NCBI RefSeq assembly: GCF_000702505.1
Contig: NZ_JNIM01000001.1
Coordinates: 4,750,327-4,814,326, forward strand
Direction: 5' to 3'
DNA length: 64,000 nucleotides
From: Thermogemmatispora carboxidivorans
GTDB taxonomy: Bacteria > Chloroflexota > Ktedonobacteria > Ktedonobacterales > Ktedonobacteraceae
In this document: in pieces, positions 18,927 to 27,540 of the stretch
Numbering within the stretch: position 1 is the first letter of the stretch
How the letters are laid out: each line of letters starts with the position of its first letter
Position numbers and translations under genes: made by a program
The notes under the pieces: model-generated
Seen by the model: only the letters and a program-made list of their open reading frames with translations
What the model was told of the DNA's origin: nothing
Database searches by the model: none

Positions 18927-20456
18927 ATGGCTACGGGTTTCAAGGTTGCTGATCTCTACTTGCTCTCGCCGGAGCTGAGCCTGACGCTGTTGGCGCTGGT
19001 GGTGATGGCAGTCGACCTGTTCGTGAAGCGCCGCGCGATTACGGCAACGGTGGCACTGGTGGGCTTGCTGGTGCCGGCTTTCTTGACGATCTCTCTTATT
19101 CTGACGAATACCGGTACGACCCGCCATGCTTTCTTTAATATGCTGGTAGTCGATAACTACGCCTTGTTCTTTAAGGTGGTCTTTCTGTTGATCGCGGCGG
19201 TGATGATCTTGTCTTCGTACTCGTACGTTTCGAAGTACGTGCGGGGCGCGGGCGAGTTCTATACGCTGCTGCTTTTTTCGACGACCGGCATGATGTTGAT
19301 GGCCAGCACTGGCGAGCTGATCTCTCTCTATATCTCGCTGGAGCTGACCAGTTTCCCGCTCTATGTGATGGCCGGGCTGCTGCGTACGGATCAGCGCTCG
19401 GCTGAGGCGGCGGTGAAGTATGTGCTGTTGGGGGCGATGTCGTCGGCGATCTTGCTCTATGGGCTGGCGCTGCTCTACGGGCTGACGGGCACGACGGATT
19501 TGTTGAGTATCGCCGGAACGTTCGCTAAGGGCCTGCAGGATGGAAATCTGTTGGTGATCGTGGCCGATATTCTGATCCTGGCGGGCTTTGGCTTTAAGAT
19601 TTCGGCGGTGCCCTTCCATATGTGGGCGCCCGATATCTATGAGGGGGCCCCGACTCCGGCGACGGCTTTCTTCTCGGTCGGTTCGAAGGCGGCAGGCTTC
19701 GCCGGCTTGCTGCGCATTTTCTTCTACGGCGGGCTGAATCTGCGCGATCTTCCTCAGTTGGTGGTGGTGGTGGCGATTATGGCCATCTTGACGATGACGC
19801 TGGGCAATGTGGTGGCGGCGGTGCAGTCGAACGTGAAGCGTATGATGGCTTATTCGAGCATTGCTCAGGCCGGCTATCTGCTGGTGGGCTTCTGCGCTAG
19901 CCTGGCAACGGGTCGCCCGGAGGGCAATGCGGCTGTGCTCTTCTTTATCCTGGTCTATGTGCTGACGAATCTGGGGGCCTTCGCGGGGATCATCGCCCTG
20001 GCCAATGCGACGGGCGGGGAGCAGATCGAGGATTTCCGCGGTCTGGCGCGACGCGAGCCGCTGGTGAGTCTGGGAACGGCGCTCTGTCTGTTGTCGCTGG
20101 CCGGAATTCCTCCGGTGGCTGGCTTCTGGAGCAAGGTGTTTCTGTTCAGCGCGGCCTGGAGCCAGGGGGTGGAGATGAATCAGCCCTGGCTGCAGTGGCT
20201 GGTGATTATTGCTTTGCTGAATAGTGTGGTGTCGCTGGTCTACTACGGGCGCATTGTGAAGGCGATGTACTTCGATGCTCCGCCCAAGGAGGATCACCTG
20301 TCGACACCGCTGGGCTTGAGTTCGTCGATTGTGTTGGCGACGGCGGCTTTGCTGGTGTTGATTGTGGTGGCGCAGGTGGTGCTGAATTGGGCTTTGCCAG
20401 CAGCTTCGATGCTCTTCGCTTCAGCGCAGGGCGTGCTGACGGCTTTGGGGCACTAG
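18927..20456 (+). CDS. nuoN: NADH-quinone oxidoreductase subunit N
   Basis: 509 residues with about 14 predicted membrane helices. NuoN is the antiporter-like subunit next to NuoK in the complex I membrane arm. The typical segments ISLELTSFPLYVMAG, FKISAVPFHMWAPDIYEG and VKRMMAYSSIAQAGY are present with their lysines and histidines. The ATG follows TAGGAGGCG. It is the last gene of the nuoJKLMN block and is followed after 55 bp by a very strong hairpin terminator, so the operon ends here. No nuoA-I genes lie in the window. Confidence 0.96.
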   Translation: MATGFKVADLYLLSPELSLTLLALVVMAVDLFVKRRAITATVALVGLLVPAFLTISLILTNTGTTRHAFFNMLVVDNYALFFKVVFLLIAAVMILSSYSYVSKYVRGAGEFYTLLLFSTTGMMLMASTGELISLYISLELTSFPLYVMAGLLRTDQRSAEAAVKYVLLGAMSSAILLYGLALLYGLTGTTDLLSIAGTFAKGLQDGNLLVIVADILILAGFGFKISAVPFHMWAPDIYEGAPTPATAFFSVGSKAAGFAGLLRIFFYGGLNLRDLPQLVVVVAIMAILTMTLGNVVAAVQSNVKRMMAYSSIAQAGYLLVGFCASLATGRPEGNAAVLFFILVYVLTNLGAFAGIIALANATGGEQIEDFRGLARREPLVSLGTALCLLSLAGIPPVAGFWSKVFLFSAAWSQGVEMNQPWLQWLVIIALLNSVVSLVYYGRIVKAMYFDAPPKEDHLSTPLGLSSSIVLATAALLVLIVVAQVVLNWALPAASMLFASAQGVLTALGH

Positions 20457-20511: not shown

Positions 20512-20557
20512 AAGGGAGGGGGACGCTTCACGCATGCGTGAAGCGTCCCCCTCCCTT
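20512..20557 (+). terminator. Terminator of the nuo operon
   Basis: A perfect, nearly loop-free palindrome of about 22 bp per arm (20512-20557) centred on CGCATGCG. It has A-rich start and T-rich end and may act on both strands, also stopping transcripts from the minus-strand genes beyond. Confidence 0.75.
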
Positions 20558-20608
20558 TCCATAAAATTACGCTGCCACTCGCTGGATTTGACAGGATGTT
20601 TTCAGGAT

Positions 20609-21100
20609 TCAGACAGGATCAGTTGACTCTGGTGAGAGGACAGCCTTCGAAGGGCGTAGTTCTTCTGGATGAAATGCACAGTAGAGCTTATGGGGCAGAA
20701 ATTGATCGGCAAGTTGCTGCCACTGCTCGATGATGGCTCCTCCATCCGGTTGCTGGCTAAAGTGCAAAGGAATGAACTGATCGAGTGCATGGCGCACGGA
20801 AGCGATCAGGAAGAAGTCTCGCAGGCCAAGGTCGATTAACTCGTAGAGGCGTTGCTCTAAAGCGCGCAGCGGGGGCATGCCAGCCTGCGGCGTCGGTGTC
20901 AATTGGGCGATTTCACGCTTGAAGGCACGGTATTTCTCTTGCTGTGCCCCGCAGAGAGCTTGCGCCAGGTCTAGCCAGAGAGAGTTGAGGTTGCAGACGC
21001 AGGCTGCATAAGGCGATCGTGCGGGAAAGGCCCGCTCAACCCAGGTGGTTAGGAGGATGCTTAGGGCCTCAACGAGATCGATTTTTGCTGAATGAGTCAT
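20609..21100 (-). CDS. Hypothetical protein, 163 residues
   Basis: I do not recognise a family. The protein is helical, soluble in appearance, has no signal peptide or membrane helix, and contains several Trp, Leu and Gln residues (for example WLDLAQALCGAQQEKYRAFK and LRDFFLIASVRHALDQF). It starts at an ATG preceded by AAAGGATC at proper spacing, which supports real translation. Base composition is lower in GC than the flanking nuo genes, as in the next 1.2 kb, so it may belong to an accessory insertion. The decayed secreted-protein gene lies 16 bp upstream on the same strand. Confidence 0.55.
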   Translation of the reverse strand: MTHSAKIDLVEALSILLTTWVERAFPARSPYAACVCNLNSLWLDLAQALCGAQQEKYRAFKREIAQLTPTPQAGMPPLRALEQRLYELIDLGLRDFFLIASVRHALDQFIPLHFSQQPDGGAIIEQWQQLADQFLPHKLYCAFHPEELRPSKAVLSPESTDPV

Positions 21101-21116
21101 TGACTGATCCTTTCAT

Positions 21117-21612
21117 CTAAAACTGGATATCAACATCCACTATACCAGAGGCAAAGTTACCTTCATAATCATAGACCGTTGCTGCCACACGCACCCCCCA
21201 AAGCTCACCTGGATCGATGTTTCGACTCCAGATATAAGCTCCTTTCCGAGGACACCAATAGGAGAGACCGGGGCGTGTATTTTGGTAGTTATATTCCGGC
21301 CCCATCTCACCCTGAACCCACCATAAGCAGCCCCATAGTTATCGGTTGACAGTAGATGGCATAGGCCTTAAGAACGATGACCCTGAGCCTTGCCGAGCAA
21401 TTGATCATACCCTGACCCCACATCTTCAGCCTGCCAGTCCTCCCACCCAATGCTTGCAGAAAACACGTCCATATCGCGGGCCTGGTTGCGGCAGTCGTAG
21501 CATGAGGATGCAAAATGATGCTATGAGTGCTCTTCTCGAGAGCAGGGGACGCCGATGCTCGTTGATTTGTAGCCAGTAAGGTGGTGGCCAATATAATCAA
21601 AATCTTTGTCAC
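21117..21612 (-). pseudogene. Decayed gene for a small secreted protein
   Basis: Three protein-like pieces lie in order in different frames. A signal-peptide-like start (MTKILIILATTLLATNQ, from 21612) shifts frame into a stretch containing FSASIGWEDWQAEDVGSGYD, which meets an in-frame TAA at 21369-21371 and continues as DNYGAAYGGFRVRWG. The last 62 residues (from 21305) are in another frame and end with RVAATVYDYEGNFASGIVDV, which looks like the C-terminus of a beta-rich exported domain. At least two frameshifts and one stop separate the parts. The family is unknown. Sequencing error is possible but would need several independent errors. Confidence 0.45.
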
Positions 21613-21913
21613 CCACGACAGAGCACTTCCTACCTACCTGCCTGCCTGTCTGCTTGCTTGCTCGATGTCAATTGCTTCATTTTATAGAGCCTCCTCTTCA
21701 TCATCTTAAAGAAGTTATATTGTTGGCACTATACACGTTAATATACTATGATTTATCTTACATTTCAATAGAATTTCAGGAGACGGATAGCCTTTGCAGA
21801 TATTGAACTCAAACTGAGTCTTTTGGAGATCCCTCTTCTTCTGCTAACACCCCAGAGCAACATTCTTCGACCTCGGTTTTACGTACCTCCGGCTTCCGCC
21901 TCCCGTTCCTAGA
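21613..21913. other. AT-rich gap with tetranucleotide tract
   Basis: No gene is supported here. A CCTAC/CCTG/CTTG tetranucleotide tract (about 21626-21662) is followed by about 150 bp clearly poorer in GC than the surroundings. Confidence 0.4.
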
Positions 21914-23155
21914 CTAGTAGATGCCGAGTGTGAGGCCGAGCCATTGCACGCTGGCATGGCCCGGCGCCTTCGCGTTCAGGCTGGCATACAGCCCCCTCAG
22001 CTCCGGCTCCACTTTCACCGACCCCATCTGCTGCGCCACATCCCACGCTCTCGCCCCCAGCCAGGCGCTCTGCTCTACCTCCCCCCACGTCAGAAACAGC
22101 TTCGCCTCCGTCACATCCAGATACATCTGCCAGGCTCCCACGTCACGCCCCAACCCTGAGCGCGCCTGCGCCAGCTCTCGATAGGTCTCCCCCAAACGCT
22201 CGCTTGCTCCCTGCCGCTGCACCAGTGTCAGCAGCAGCTTCGCTCTCTCGTGGTGCACCGCCGCCCGGTTCAGCTTCAACTGCGAAGCGTCCTCTTCTCC
22301 TCCCTCCACTCGCTCCACCAATTTGAGCGCCTCCTCCTGCCACCCTCGCCACTGCCGCTCGTCTCCCTCTCCCACCTCCGCCAGCACCGTCGCCGCCCGC
22401 AGGTACAGATTGCCCCCTAACGCCGGCCCTACCCGCTTCACCCAGCTCAGTCCCGCCTGCGCCGCATCTCTGGCCTGTGCTGCTGCTCCTATTTGTCGAT
22501 AGAGATCCATTAGACGATAGAAGGCCAAGCCAATGAGCGTTGGCTCATCCTGCTCTTGACCCAGCCGGAGTAGTTCGCTGGCCAGACTCAAGGCTACGCT
22601 GCTCTGGTGATCCCCCTGCGAGTGTCTGGCAACAGAGCTGGCCCGCAGCAGGTAAAGGCCCAGCAGCCAGAGCCAGGCCTCGCGCTCGCTGGCTGGTGCC
22701 TCCTTCACCTTCTGCCGCAGCCTCCCCAGCCAGCGCGGCATCCTCTCTGCCAGTATGCGAAATTGACCGGCATACAGTAGCCGGCTCGCCAGCGTCAACA
22801 GATCCTCGTACTGATAGTAGCCCTCCAGGCTGACCACCTCGGCCAGCCGCTCGTAACTGGCCCCTGGCTCTCCCTCCTTGCCCACATAGGCCACCTGCTC
22901 CCAGGCCAGCCCCAACAACGCCGGCGGGATCTGTAAAAACCTGGCCAGTAACACGCGCCGCTCTGGATCTGCCAGATACATCGTCGCCTCCCAGTAGCTC
23001 ACCGTCTGCTTCTTGACTCTCAATGCCTGCGCTACTTCTGCTCGACTGTAACCTCGCCGCTGCCGGTAGTCGCTCAGGACTGCCCCCATATGCGGTAGAT
23101 TGTGTTTCCCCGGCGCATACTCCCCATAACGCCGCCACCAGTGCATACCACTCAT
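21914..23155 (-). CDS. XRE-family regulator with TPR-like domain, copy A
   Basis: 413 residues. An XRE helix-turn-helix occupies about 24-78 (LSDYRQRRGYSRAEVAQALR, then KKQTVSYWEATMYL). The rest is helical and TPR-like and should bind a partner or small ligand. The ATG at 23155 follows AAAGGAGGCAAGAG; the longer open frame upstream merely runs through the repeat of copy B. Copy A matches B and C closely from 1 to 164 and from 234 to the end, but residues 165-233 differ strongly (it has RASSVARHSQ where B and C have AxxASHQP). The last residues are LGIY instead of LGMV. It is the last of three co-directional copies, probably transcribed from the promoter before copy C. No ligand can be named. 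Confidence 0.82.
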   Translation of the reverse strand: MSGMHWWRRYGEYAPGKHNLPHMGAVLSDYRQRRGYSRAEVAQALRVKKQTVSYWEATMYLADPERRVLLARFLQIPPALLGLAWEQVAYVGKEGEPGASYERLAEVVSLEGYYQYEDLLTLASRLLYAGQFRILAERMPRWLGRLRQKVKEAPASEREAWLWLLGLYLLRASSVARHSQGDHQSSVALSLASELLRLGQEQDEPTLIGLAFYRLMDLYRQIGAAAQARDAAQAGLSWVKRVGPALGGNLYLRAATVLAEVGEGDERQWRGWQEEALKLVERVEGGEEDASQLKLNRAAVHHERAKLLLTLVQRQGASERLGETYRELAQARSGLGRDVGAWQMYLDVTEAKLFLTWGEVEQSAWLGARAWDVAQQMGSVKVEPELRGLYASLNAKAPGHASVQWLGLTLGIY

Positions 23156-23207
23156 CTCTTGCCTCCTTTGTCTGGCAGACACCCTGCACCTTGCATCGAC
23201 GCCGCCT

Positions 23208-24449
23208 CTATACCATGCCGAGTGTGAGGCCGAGCCATTGCACGCTGGCATGGCCCGGCGCCTTCGCGCTCAGACTGGCATACAGCCCCCTCAGCTCCGG
23301 CTCCACTTTCACCGACCCCATCTGCTGCGCCACATCCCACGCTCTCGCCCCCAGCCAGGCGCTCTGCTCTACCTCCCCCCAGGCCAGAAACAGCTTCGCC
23401 TCCGTCACATCCAGATACATCTGCCAGGCTCCCACGTCACGCCCCAACCCTGAGCGCGCCTGCGCCAGCTCTCGATAGGTCTCCCCCAAACGCTCGCTTT
23501 CTCCCTGCCGCTGCACCAGTGTCAGCAGCAGCTTCGCTCTCTCGTGGTGCACCGCCGCCCGGTTCAGCTTCAACTGCGAAGCGTCCTCTTCTCCTCCCTC
23601 CACTCGCTCCACCAATTTGAGCGCCTCCTCCTGCCACCCTCGCCACTGCCGCTCGTCTCCTTCTCCCACCTCCGCCAGCACCGTCGCCGCCCGCAGGTAC
23701 AGATTGCCCCCTAACGCCGGCCCTACCCGCTTCACCCAGCTCAGTCCCGCCCAGGCCGCCGCACCGGCAGACGTGCGATCCCCCACTTCCAGATGACGGT
23801 GAGCCAGGTGGAAGAAGGCCAGGCCCGTTAAGGTCGGATCATCCAGTTCGCGCGCCAGGCCCAGCAGCTCCTGTGTCAGGCCCAGCGCTTTCCATCTCTG
23901 AGCAGCCCCTGGCTGATGACTGGCTAGCCAGGCCGTCAGATGGAGATACTGACCCTGCAGCCAGAGCCAGGCCTCGCGCTCGCTGGCTGGTGCCTCCTTC
24001 ACCTTCTGCCGCAGCCTCCCCAGCCAGCGCGGCATCCTCTCTGCCAGTATGCGAATCTGACCGGTATACTGCAGCCGGTTAGCAAGCGTCAATAGATCCT
24101 CGTACTGATAGTAGCCCTCCAGGCTGACCACCTCGGCCAGCCGCTCGTAACTGGCCCCTGGCTCTCCCTCCTTGCCCACATAGGCCACCTGCTCCCAGGC
24201 CAGCCCCAACAACGCCGGCGGGATCTGTAAAAACCTGGCCAGTAACACGCGCCGCTCTGGATCTGCCAGATACATCGTCGCCTCCCAGTAGCTCACCGTC
24301 TGCTTCTTGACTCTCAATGCCTGCGCTACTTCTGCTCGACTGTAACCTCGCCGCTGCCGGTAGTCGCTCAGGACTGCCCCCATATGCGGTAGATTGTGTT
24401 TCCCCGGCGCATACTCCCCATAACGCCGCCACCAGTGCACACCACTCAT
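23208..24449 (-). CDS. XRE-family regulator with TPR-like domain, copy B
   Basis: 413 residues, same architecture as its neighbours: N-terminal XRE helix-turn-helix (about 24-78), helical conserved part, variable cassette (165-233, here beginning HLTAWLASHQPGAAQRW) and conserved TPR-like C-terminal half. The start has the same AAAGGAGG ribosome site. Copy B is separated from A by 52 bp and from C by 52 bp, so the repeat period is exactly 1294 bp on both sides. The spacers carry no recognisable promoter, which points to a single transcript reading C, B, A. In the cassette, B is closer to C than to A. Confidence 0.82.
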   Translation of the reverse strand: MSGVHWWRRYGEYAPGKHNLPHMGAVLSDYRQRRGYSRAEVAQALRVKKQTVSYWEATMYLADPERRVLLARFLQIPPALLGLAWEQVAYVGKEGEPGASYERLAEVVSLEGYYQYEDLLTLANRLQYTGQIRILAERMPRWLGRLRQKVKEAPASEREAWLWLQGQYLHLTAWLASHQPGAAQRWKALGLTQELLGLARELDDPTLTGLAFFHLAHRHLEVGDRTSAGAAAWAGLSWVKRVGPALGGNLYLRAATVLAEVGEGDERQWRGWQEEALKLVERVEGGEEDASQLKLNRAAVHHERAKLLLTLVQRQGESERLGETYRELAQARSGLGRDVGAWQMYLDVTEAKLFLAWGEVEQSAWLGARAWDVAQQMGSVKVEPELRGLYASLSAKAPGHASVQWLGLTLGMV

Positions 24450-24501
24450 CTCTTGCCTCCTTTGTCTGGCAGACACCCTGCACCCTACATCGACGCCGCT
24501 C

Positions 24502-25734
24502 CTATACCATGCCGAGTGTGAGGCCGAGCCATTGCACGCTGGCATGGCCCGGCGCCTTCGCGTTCAGGCTGGCATACAGCCCCCTCAGCTCCGGCTCCAC
24601 TTTCACCGACCCCATCTGCTGCGCCACATCCCACGCTCTCGCCCCCAGCCAGGCGCTCTGCTCTACCTCCCCCCAGGCCAGAAACAGCTTCGCCTCCGTC
24701 ACATCCAGGTACATCTGCCATAAGCCTACGTCACGTCCCAACCCTGAGCGCGCTTGCGCCAGCTCTCGATAGGTCTCCCCCAAACGCTCGCTTTCTCCCT
24801 GCCGCTGCACCAGTGTCAGCAGCAGCTTCGCTCTCTCGTGATGCACCGCCGCCCGGTTCAGTTTCAACTGCGAAGCGTCCTCTTCTCCTCCCTCCACTCG
24901 CTCCACCAATTTGAGCGCCTCCTCCTGCCACCCTCGCCACTGCCGCTCGTCTCCTTCTCCCACCTCCGCCAGCACCGTCGCCGCCCGCAGGTACAGATTG
25001 CCCCCTAACGCCGGCCCTACCCGCTTCACCCAGCTCAGTCCCGCCTGCGCCGCCCCCTTCGCTGACGTCTCGTCGCCTCCCTCCAGATAGCAACGAGCCA
25101 GGTGGAAGAAGGCCAGGCCATGTAACGTCGGATCATCCAGCTCGCGCGCCAGGCCCAGCAGCTCCTGTGTCAGGCCCAACTCCGCCCCCATTTGCGGCTG
25201 ATGACTGGCTACCCCAGCCGCCAGATGGAGATACTGACCCTGCAGCCAGAGCCAGGCCTCGCGCTCGCTGGCTGGTGCCTCCTTCACCTTCTGCCGCAGC
25301 CTCCCCAGCCAGCGCGGCATCCTCTCTGCCAGTACGCGAATCTGACCGGTATACTGCAGCCGCTTAGCAAGCGTCAACAGATCCTCGTACTGATAGTAGC
25401 CCTCCAGGCTGACCACCTCCGCCAGCCGCTCGTAACTGGCCCCTGGCTCTCCCTCCTTGCCCACATAGGCCACCTGCTCCCAGGCCAGCCCCAACAACGC
25501 CGGCGGGATCTGTAAAAACCTGGCCAGTAACACGCGCCGCTCTGGATCTGCCAGATACATCGTCGCCTCCCAGTAGCTCACCGTCTGCTTCTTGACTCTC
25601 AATGCCTGCGCTACTTCTGCTCGACTGTAGCCTCGCCGCTGCCGGTAGTCGCTCAGGACTGCCCCCATATGCGGTAGATTGTGTTTCCCCGGCGCATACT
25701 CCCCATAACGCCGCCACCAGTGCACACCACTCAT
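24502..25734 (-). CDS. XRE-family regulator with TPR-like domain, copy C (promoter-proximal)
   Basis: 410 residues. It shares the XRE helix-turn-helix and TPR-like body with copies A and B, but its cassette (about 165-230) is three residues shorter and reads HLAAGVASHQPQMGAELGLT at its start. It is the first gene of the tandem set and has a good sigma70-type promoter 45 bp upstream (25785-25813). Upstream of it the repeat stops abruptly right after the ribosome site, so the promoter is unique to this copy. XRE/TPR proteins of this length often sense peptides or protein partners, but nothing in the sequence proves that here. Confidence 0.82.
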   Translation of the reverse strand: MSGVHWWRRYGEYAPGKHNLPHMGAVLSDYRQRRGYSRAEVAQALRVKKQTVSYWEATMYLADPERRVLLARFLQIPPALLGLAWEQVAYVGKEGEPGASYERLAEVVSLEGYYQYEDLLTLAKRLQYTGQIRVLAERMPRWLGRLRQKVKEAPASEREAWLWLQGQYLHLAAGVASHQPQMGAELGLTQELLGLARELDDPTLHGLAFFHLARCYLEGGDETSAKGAAQAGLSWVKRVGPALGGNLYLRAATVLAEVGEGDERQWRGWQEEALKLVERVEGGEEDASQLKLNRAAVHHERAKLLLTLVQRQGESERLGETYRELAQARSGLGRDVGLWQMYLDVTEAKLFLAWGEVEQSAWLGARAWDVAQQMGSVKVEPELRGLYASLNAKAPGHASVQWLGLTLGMV

Positions 25735-25784
25735 CTCTTGCCTCCTTTATCTGTCAAGAGGGCAAAGAACATTTCCTACGAGGG

Positions 25785-25813
25785 AGTGTAGCATTCAGTT
25801 CAGCTCTTTTCAA
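25785..25813 (-). promoter_or_regulatory. Promoter of the XRE/TPR tandem array
   Basis: On the minus strand TTGAAA (25808-25813), 17 bp, TACACT (25785-25790). The expected start site is about 45 bp before copy C. Confidence 0.6.
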
Positions 25814-25920
25814 TGGATTGAAGCCCATAGCTTTCGCTACACAATTTTGCTTTTGGCAAGCTTTTGAGCGACGATCTCGGGGGAGGGATGAGAAGGGGAT
25901 TCAGAGGGCCTCAGCTCTGC

Positions 25921-27540
25921 TCAGGCCCTCTGGCCAAACAAGGCCCGAATCTGAGAGACGGCTTCCTCAAGCGAAATCTGGCGATCCTGCACGCGCCGCA
26001 GAATATCCTCCAGCGCCGGCGTCTCCTCTCCAACGGCCTCAGCAGCGGTCGCAGCGGTCGTCGACGATGGCGTCGCCTCTGGCTCTGCTCCAGACCTGGC
26101 GGGCTGCACTTGCGCTGGTAGAGAGGAACCCAGGTTCGCGAGCACTCCGCTGCGCCGCGCCTGCCAGAGATAGGAGGCCAGCACGATTAGCCCGACCAGC
26201 AACCCTACCACACTCTCCTGCGTCAGCCGCGGCCAGTTCTCTACAGGGGAGCCAAGCGCCAGAGTCCCCAGGGAGAAAAGAAGGACCGCCCCGCCGACGG
26301 TGGTCGCCAGCACTCCACCGACCAGCGCAGCCAGAATGAAGCCCTGGCACGGTAGCAGAGCACGCTCTGGCTCCTCTCGATAGCGCCGCATCAAGAGCAG
26401 ATTCAGCGGCAGCGTGCCCAGGCCAACCAGCAGCGGCGCCACCCCATCGATCCAGTCGCCAGGCTGCGGCAGGGCTCCTGTTGGAAACAGCGTGAAAAGG
26501 AGGGCCAGCAACAGACGCCCGCTCCCAGCCCAGAACAGCAGCGCCAGCAAGGCTGCAGTCATAGCCAGCAGGCTGTAGCGCAGCAGAGCCCGCGCCCGCA
26601 GTGGATCAGACACCTGCTTCACCTCACTCTGCAGCCAGAGCCAGGCGAAGCCAGCCACCAGCAGGCCGACCAGCACCATACCGGACGGCAGCGTGAAAAA
26701 CAAGGCCCCAGGCGGCGACAGCAGAGCCGTTGCCTGGATCTTCTCCCCCGTCAGGAAGCGCAGGAGCAGATCCAGCAGAGCGGCCCACTCATCGAGAATT
26801 AAGAAGAGACCATAGGCCAGCACACCACCATAGAAGAGGCGCCGCAACCACGAGCCAGGGTCGTGACGATTGAGATAACCATAGACAAACCAGGCCAGCC
26901 CAAACCAGAGCGCCGTCGCCAATGGCCCTCTCAGATCGGCGTGACCATTGACGACAGCGGATGGCGCAACGTGCCCACCGCCGAGCAGGTAGGAATCAAG
27001 CGCCAGCGAGAGGAAATAATTCGTGGCGCTCACCAACGGGAAGAGAAGGATGAGCTGAACGCCGTAGACATGAAGACGCTGAAAAAAGCGCGCCAGCCCG
27101 GAGCCAACTGGCAGACGCCGCCGCTCCCACTCCAGAACCAGCAACCCGGCCAGCACCGCCAGACCAGTGGCCGCATAGCCACTTTGGAACTGGGTGAGCA
27201 CCTGACCGAGCGAGAAGATCGCGATCGGAGCCAGCACCAGCTCACTCAAATTGAGAAAAAAAGCGCGCACAGCACCACTGCCAGCCGCCGGGTCCTGACG
27301 CAGATCGCGACGCAGCAACCAGTAATGCAGCCCCCCCAGGACAGCGACGAAGAGAAGGACCGTCACAGCAAAAACCAGCGCCTGTACCACCTCAGCCCGA
27401 TCAGGGACCGCCTCATAGCCGGGCCGCAGCGGAGTCAGACGCCAGAGCGGATCAAGCAGGCCAGCGAGAGCATAGATGACAAGACTGAGCAGGAGAAGCA
27501 GGATCACATACAGATAGCTGCGGTAGAGATTGCGAGCCAC
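25921..27540 (-). CDS. Multi-helix membrane protein, DUF5671-like
   Basis: 539 residues with about 12-14 hydrophobic helices arranged as two or three similar blocks (LYVILLLLLSLVIYALAGLL near the start and related segments near 185 and 325), which resembles the DUF5671 membrane family. Function is unknown. The C-terminal 70 residues are hydrophilic, with an Ala/Thr/Ser-rich linker and a short helical tail (EDILRRVQDRQISLEEAVSQI) that looks like a small cytoplasmic interaction helix. AAAGGAG precedes the ATG, so the start is secure. It is on the same strand as the XRE array and lies upstream of it, separated by the array promoter. Confidence 0.65.
   Translation of the reverse strand: MARNLYRSYLYVILLLLLSLVIYALAGLLDPLWRLTPLRPGYEAVPDRAEVVQALVFAVTVLLFVAVLGGLHYWLLRRDLRQDPAAGSGAVRAFFLNLSELVLAPIAIFSLGQVLTQFQSGYAATGLAVLAGLLVLEWERRRLPVGSGLARFFQRLHVYGVQLILLFPLVSATNYFLSLALDSYLLGGGHVAPSAVVNGHADLRGPLATALWFGLAWFVYGYLNRHDPGSWLRRLFYGGVLAYGLFLILDEWAALLDLLLRFLTGEKIQATALLSPPGALFFTLPSGMVLVGLLVAGFAWLWLQSEVKQVSDPLRARALLRYSLLAMTAALLALLFWAGSGRLLLALLFTLFPTGALPQPGDWIDGVAPLLVGLGTLPLNLLLMRRYREEPERALLPCQGFILAALVGGVLATTVGGAVLLFSLGTLALGSPVENWPRLTQESVVGLLVGLIVLASYLWQARRSGVLANLGSSLPAQVQPARSGAEPEATPSSTTAATAAEAVGEETPALEDILRRVQDRQISLEEAVSQIRALFGQRA

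Follow-up and report, generated by a model that had tools for sequence, protein, structure and literature searches.

The three tandem XRE-HTH/TPR genes described here, all on the minus strand of a Thermogemmatispora (Chloroflexota) genome, are best explained – with a probability of roughly 0.6 – as an old, homogenised array that has retained two types of an internal cassette, and whose products would receive differing inputs, act on a shared target and regulate their own expression. Within the window (the whole stretch of DNA analysed, 64,000 nucleotides), gene C (24502..25734; 410 aa) takes the first position of the putative operon and is followed by gene B (23208..24449; 413 aa) and by gene A (21914..23155; 413 aa), the last. 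The ATG of B, at 24449, is preceded by AAAGGAGG; a longer ORF from 24545 runs into C. An earlier note on this DNA had reported a repeat period of 1294 bp and a copy C shorter by three codons. The 3' ends are indeed spaced by 1294 and 1294 bp, and further upstream (start-to-start distances included) the spacings are 1294 and 1285 bp, because C lacks 9 nt, that is, the three codons.

The same note described flanks that are alike on either side of strongly divergent codons 165–233, and the contrast is as marked as it had claimed: A, B and C share 98–99% identity outside the variable parts vs 54–79% inside these codons, which form the cassette (A, 22457..22663; B, 23751..23957; C, 25045..25242, minus the three codons; all minus strand). 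Between A and B, 96 of 112 nucleotide differences fall in the 207-nt cassette, and its edges are sharp: the two genes are identical over 98 nt before codon 165 and over 89 nt after codon 233. Uniform drift was rightly doubted, an even spread of differences being rejected for all three pairs (log10 P of -57 for A/B, -45 for A/C and -19 for B/C). The HTH is identical or almost so across the copies. At 79% nucleotide identity the cassettes of B and C are largely alike: there are thus two cassette types (type 1 in A, type 2 in B and C) and not three unrelated cassettes. A second type-linked island, overlooked previously, spans codons 119–134 (A, 22754..22801; B, 24048..24095; C, 25333..25380; all minus strand); 9 of its 48 nt differ between A and B, and 30 identical codons separate it from the cassette. 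Codons 330–345 of C hold a patch private to that copy, in which changes are mostly synonymous.

Synonymous and non-synonymous change is concentrated in the cassette rather than evenly spread along the alignment. Diversifying selection that still acts on a ligand pocket, within genes that otherwise evolve slowly, would fit the many amino-acid changes in TPR helices, the between-type pN of 0.39 and the location of the C/B differences, which fall mostly within two stretches of the cassette. Synonymous change, however, is just as concentrated: in the same gene pairs dS is 1.3–1.8 in the cassette vs 0–0.28 in the flanks (1.8 for the A/B cassettes vs no synonymous difference at 124 sites in the A/B flanks; 0.28 for the weakly homogenised copies of the relative HOG45). 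Moreover, pN/pS is below 1 everywhere, being 0.16 within type 1 cassettes and 0.30 within type 2, and when the two types are compared, divergence is even greater at synonymous than at non-synonymous sites. The cassette thus appears to be under purifying selection today and not to diversify rapidly. The dS pattern refutes diversifying selection as the chief source of the contrast, and we consider it very improbable in that role; an early burst following duplication may have occurred. Of the suggestion that selection favored new ligand specificity, the part that stands is the long-term retention of two versions, while current diversification does not.

The history of the two types was traced in the only five genomes with this locus, of which two are fragmented. 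Besides A, each of the four relatives has one copy with a type 1 cassette, and three of them also have a copy with type 2, the type of B and C. Both types are present in four of the five genomes, T. aurantia having type 1 only. Within a type, cassette identity across species is 74–99%; between types it is approximately 54%, even inside one genome. Cassettes from different species cluster by type, whereas the flanks cluster for the most part by genome; each partition rejects the tree of the other (delta lnL 480 and 196). In the flank partition, and only there, paralogues within a genome are closer than orthologues and the type tree is rejected. Within a type, cassette and flanks have similar cross-species dS, and pN/pS is low. 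Type-grouped cassettes, genome-grouped flanks and the rejection of a common tree together indicate concerted evolution of the flanks from which the cassette is left out: on these comparisons the flanks have very probably undergone repeated gene conversion within genomes, with the 69-codon cassette and the 16-codon island escaping homogenisation. Gene conversion of the flanks was among the options that the earlier note listed, and it is the one that gains strong support. Among the relatives this locus differs in gene order and in copy number (one to three), from which it follows that the copies recombine; in one further relative (G002) the upstream neighbor gene was not found, which gives no basis to call the array absent.

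The two types predate the split of the sampled species, and this bears on whether the cassettes came from elsewhere. Had fresh, near-identical duplicates taken up foreign cassettes of 200 bp, either from another gene or horizontally, this would account for the sharp edges and for a cassette GC3 of 59–67% vs 73–90% in the flanks of A and B. Pieces of the gene do pass between species, which also speaks for import: codons 47–245 of A (22421..23017, minus strand) share 99.3% identity with the HOG45 type 1 copy, against 84–93% over the remainder of the gene, which marks a recent exchange between lineages. B and C match this block on either side of the cassette and not inside it, as conversion that leaves the cassette out would produce. 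Against recent import of the cassettes stands the presence of both types at the same locus in relatives, with species-level divergence, which places them there beforehand. A search of the genome with the cassettes of A and B found no donor, and type 1 and type 2 are sisters with respect to all outside paralogues (96–99% support). The proposal that a cassette was exchanged with, or imported from, elsewhere in the genome thus finds no backing; recent import is improbable and largely refuted, and a lost relative may have been the first source of one type. Less probable still, to the point of being hardly credible, is targeted mutagenesis by a diversity-generating retroelement, which a variable patch within a constant gene would resemble: the changes are not adenine-specific, the genome holds no template-like second copy of the cassette, and no reverse transcriptase (PF00078) was found in it.

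Why, then, would conversion spare the cassette? Homologous pairing usually requires more than the approximately 54% identity found here, and conversion tracts may halt at the cassette because the mismatch of approximately 46% prevents pairing there. Taken alone, such a barrier would be passive: the cassette diverged by chance, became too unlike to pair, and conversion has since copied only the flanks, with no functional meaning. This would produce sharp edges without selection, and it sits well with the single type of T. aurantia and with a frameshift, real or an assembly error, in a G run of the second T. tikiterensis copy (type 2), both of which show that type 2 is not essential everywhere. 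A purely passive barrier nevertheless seems unlikely, if much less so than the other alternatives. Each type is conserved, at the pN/pS values given above; both are retained in four genomes, in which a conversion tract covering the whole cassette would have wiped out one type and has not; and the island at codons 119–134 remains type-linked despite the 30 homogenised codons in between. Our preferred reading, of a homogenised array with two retained types, adds that recombinants that lose a cassette type would be removed by selection.

What the types might do is suggested by the proteins. All three exceed the Pfam gathering scores by which XRE-family HTH regulators were defined (HTH_3, 31–32 bits, cut-off 23; HTH_31, 31.7 bits, cut-off 27). 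Pfam TPR matches are sub-threshold in A, B and C; both AlphaFold2 models (pLDDT 87) nonetheless predict a TPR superhelix of about seven helical hairpins, from residue 113 to 409. In these models the cassette corresponds to the helices of TPR2–TPR3, and the island to helix A of TPR1 and the following turn; helix B of TPR1 has no type-fixed site. The idea that the cassette may be a ligand pocket thereby survives in part, in that the cassette is predicted to form TPR helices and not a solvent loop. In helix A of TPR3, type-fixed sites make up 5 of 6 groove positions vs 3 of 11 others (Fisher P = 0.043, with the TPR register assigned by eye), an enrichment that is suggestive only. With near-identical HTH and C-terminal TPRs, the copies would share one DNA target and one dimer interface, and would differ, through the variable part of TPR1–TPR3, in the ligand or partner protein that they sense, so that two or three signals converge on one target. 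That different inputs meet on one DNA target is a real possibility, somewhat short of even odds.

Directly upstream of the three copies there is, at consensus level, a single sigma70-like site on the right strand, TTGAAA-N17-TACACT with TG ahead of the -10 (25785..25813, minus strand); B and A are each preceded by no more than a 52-bp gap containing a AAAGGAGG ribosome-binding site. At that level the observation that only C has a promoter holds, and one promoter appears to drive C, B and A. A perfect palindrome, TTCAATCCATTGAA (25809..25822), overlaps the -35 box and is a candidate operator through which A, B and C may regulate their common promoter, a proposal that we hold tentatively. Conservation does not set the palindrome apart, since the whole upstream region is 93% conserved. 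An exact-match search of the genome gave no second copy that would suggest a wider regulon, and there are two sites with one mismatch. A fuller version of the model, which we offer more tentatively still, is 'one address, several sensors': HTH and C-terminal parts maintained by conversion would act on one operator, singly or as mixed dimers, and the cassette with its linked island would make up specificity types that persist over long times and also move between species. The array offers a clean natural experiment on how duplicated regulators can gain different inputs without drift of the shared output: recombination itself seems to fix the output part as the internal cassette stays distinct, and the cassette edges delimit candidate specificity residues for TPR sensors in a poorly studied phylum.

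Documented bacterial examples of the pattern are rare, and comparisons with NCBIfam and with PDB sequences gave weak, generic matches that place the proteins in no known family. For the NsdA-family TPR-like regulators (NF053720, named after Streptomyces NsdA), two paralogues in this genome, 41–45% identical, match weakly (2.6e-13 and 1.8e-12) with scores of 50 and 48 bits, below the cut-off of 75; A, B and C have no match at an E of 1 or less. A pheromone gene, small and secreted, usually but not universally lies beside receptors of the RRNPPA group (Rgg, Rap, NprR, PlcR, PrgX, AimR). Beside the array, the five genomes share no conserved small downstream ORF, and the short ORFs found upstream overlap the promoter. 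RRNPPA receptors combine an N-terminal HTH (or three-helix bundle) with a TPR-fold C-terminal part (PMC9765709), and A, B and C have this layout of N-terminal HTH and C-terminal TPR superhelix. The RRNPPA receptors, however, are from Firmicutes, and matches to Rap and PlcR, in sequence or fold, are weak: the best PDB sequence match is RapJ, at a marginal E of 0.0044, and Foldseek found no closely similar solved structure with this architecture and put eukaryotic TPR proteins at the top, with Rap and PlcR no better than LGN or kinesin light chain. The analogy with Rgg, PlcR and Rap thus extends to layout and fold and not beyond, and with neither a specific tie nor a conserved adjacent pheromone gene the proteins are not assigned to the group.

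Closer parallels concern the mode of evolution. Long-lasting, recurrent concerted evolution of key-pathway genes in prokaryotes is the subject of PMC6053082, and, as there, paralogues of one genome are closer than orthologues between species; in A, B and C, by contrast, one part of each gene escapes and groups the other way. The closest documented pattern is that of mammalian TLR1 and TLR6, tandem sensor paralogues in which one region has been converted independently in each species while another is paralogue-specific (PMC2077338). The array likewise homogenises one region and keeps another copy- or type-specific. TLR1 and TLR6, however, are animal membrane receptors with leucine-rich repeats whose divergent part is N-terminal, whereas A, B and C are bacterial transcription factors in which the divergent cassette lies inside the gene, between two homogenised flanks.

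The array consists of three XRE-type HTH/TPR regulator genes on the minus strand: C (24502-25734), first in the operon, then B (23208-24449) and A (21914-23155). Each product has an N-terminal HTH_3 match (about 1e-7, residues 28-80) with a TPR-like region C-terminal to it. The genome of Thermogemmatispora carboxidivorans (Ktedonobacteria, Chloroflexota) is one 5.6-Mb contig. The array is bordered by nuoN (18927-20456, plus strand; Pfam Proton_antipo_M) and, on the other side, by a gene for a 539-aa membrane protein (25921-27540; weak DUF5671 match), neighbours that are conserved around the array in relatives. The ~1.35-kb interval between nuoN and gene A (20560-21913) is specific to this genome, against ~0.1-0.2 kb in relatives; within it are short ORFs and one of 163 aa (20609-21100), none with a Pfam match. 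A perfect 46-bp inverted repeat (20512-20557; 23+23 nt, spacer 0) lies right after nuoN, between the convergent genes, and is perhaps a two-way terminator. The same genome carries a second trio of XRE/TPR paralogues (L004, L005 and L007; genome positions 4.300-4.309 Mb), with identities of 41-45% for two and 31% for the third; two of the trio are weak matches to an NsdA-family model, and T. tikiterensis has a similar pair.

An earlier note had drawn attention to a contrast between one cassette (codons 165-233) and the rest of the gene, and this is borne out: 96 of the 112 nucleotide differences between A and B fall inside the 207-nt cassette. Nine of the rest fall in an island of 48 nt at codons 119-134, and seven in the other 978 nt; A and B are identical over the 98 nt preceding and the 89 nt following the cassette. 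Cassette identity is 79% for B and C and 54-56% for A versus either, and codons 181-183 are missing from C. The B and C cassettes match almost completely over codons 189-216 and differ strongly over 172-188 and 217-233, as if a short conversion tract were nested inside.

The same locus was compared in four relatives: G003 and T. tikiterensis (two array copies each), T. aurantia (one copy) and the HOG45 MAG (two copies, on separate contigs). Cassettes fall into two types – type 1, comprising A and one copy from each relative (86-99% nucleotide identity), and type 2, comprising B, C and the other copy of G003, T. tikiterensis and HOG45 (74-95%) – which share 52-57% identity even within one genome. 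Flanks, in contrast, group by genome (97-100% in T. carboxidivorans, 91-98% in G003, 94-98% in T. tikiterensis; mostly 82-94% between genomes), HOG45 being the exception, with weakly homogenised copies (N flank 88%). Maximum-likelihood trees of cassette and flank reject one another (delta lnL 480 and 196, AU P<1e-50). Type 2 precedes type 1 in T. carboxidivorans and HOG45, and follows it in G003 and T. tikiterensis; the changed order points to unequal crossing-over or to cassette exchange between positions.

Synonymous sites discriminate among drift, selection and conversion. A and B have no synonymous differences over 124 flank sites, against a dS of 1.8 in the cassette, a contrast too large for selection on amino acids alone. 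Within types, cassette dS across species is mostly 0.33-0.51 (0.04 for A versus HOG45) and pN/pS is low (0.16 for type 1, 0.30 for type 2), both much as in the flanks. Together with the A/B contrast, this indicates that cassettes are old and conserved, and that flanks look young because they have been repeatedly overwritten. Thus, among the causes proposed in the earlier note, gene conversion of the flanks stands, and amino-acid selection alone does not; nor does import of cassettes from a donor in the genome, a genome search having found none. The window genome also has no reverse transcriptase. In a tree with 15 outside homologues both types form one clade (support 96-99%), which argues for an old duplication within the array rather than two unrelated sources.

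One exchange is recent. Over codons 47-245, A differs from the HOG45 type 1 copy at 4 of 597 nt, and their islands are identical; outside this block the differences are 22/138 nt (codons 1-46) and 33/498 nt (246-411). Near-identity so confined indicates transfer of a cassette-containing block between the two lineages which, on sequence, could have run either way. B and C have the near-identical parts of the block (47-118, 135-164 and 234-245) without its cassette: flank tracts have thus spread among copies on both sides of an unreplaced cassette.

The AlphaFold2 models of A (mean pLDDT 86.8) and B (87.2), with pTM 0.78, predict an HTH region and ~7 helical hairpins (113-409), joined by a linker of low confidence at about 91-109. 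The cassette is not a solvent loop, the outcome that the earlier note had named as refuting its idea: it maps to helices of TPR2 (the latter half of helix A, 155-178, and helix B) and of TPR3 (helix A and most of helix B). The island corresponds to the latter half of TPR1 helix A with the turn that follows. Thirty-five positions have no residue common to both types (TPR1A 2, TPR1B 0, TPR2A 6, TPR2B 10, TPR3A 8, TPR3B 4, loops 5). The conserved stretch between island and cassette is modelled as TPR1 helix B and the beginning of TPR2 helix A, as general TPR geometry would lead one to expect if type-specific residues line the inner groove.

A single sigma70-like promoter (TTGAAA-17-TACACT, TG before the -10) lies upstream of C, its -35 box overlapped by the palindrome TTCAATCCATTGAA. 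The exact palindrome occurs once in T. carboxidivorans and once each in G003, T. aurantia and T. tikiterensis, always at this promoter; in HOG45 the promoter copy carries one mismatch, and an exact copy lies at another site. The 5' region is 93% conserved throughout, so the palindrome does not stand out by conservation alone. Dimeric XRE proteins commonly bind a palindrome at their own promoter, and by this analogy autoregulation of the array through the candidate palindrome is a reasonable guess. The gaps at 23156-23207 and 24450-24501 carry a short inverted repeat (TGTCTGCCAGACA) directly before the ribosome-binding site, absent upstream of C.

Near-identical HTHs within a genome, distinct conserved cassettes and a shared promoter arrangement are best read as regulators that share their DNA-binding part and C-terminal TPRs and whose differing TPR1-TPR3 surfaces would serve different ligands or partners at one target. 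The surfaces would bind ligands, the copies would act on a common operator and form mixed dimers, and loss of a type would be selected against. The main rival is passive: mismatch alone blocks conversion in the cassette. Consistent with this, T. aurantia is down to one copy of type 1 (L040 6858-8084), which has lost 15 bp in frame at codons 253-257, and in the second, type 2 copy of T. tikiterensis (L041 8440-9682) a G run near codon 247 carries a one-base frameshift, reflecting either a pseudogene or an assembly error. Against it, both types persist in four of the five genomes, and the island is linked to cassette type.

Among solved structures, the models match TPR proteins of a generic kind (LGN, kinesin light chain, MalT domain III, Rap, PlcR; TM-scores ~0.3-0.5 by query length). 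Resemblance to RRNPPA receptors is confined to layout, the array having neither a conserved adjacent pheromone gene nor a specific sequence or fold match. A search of open-licence papers turned up no case of a bacterial regulator carrying a protected internal cassette, which is weak evidence of novelty. Concerted evolution in prokaryotes is documented, with strong evidence for 26 genes (PMC6053082). The array's pattern matches that of the mammalian TLR1/TLR6 pair, where gene conversion restrains divergence in one region and another region diversifies (PMC2077338).
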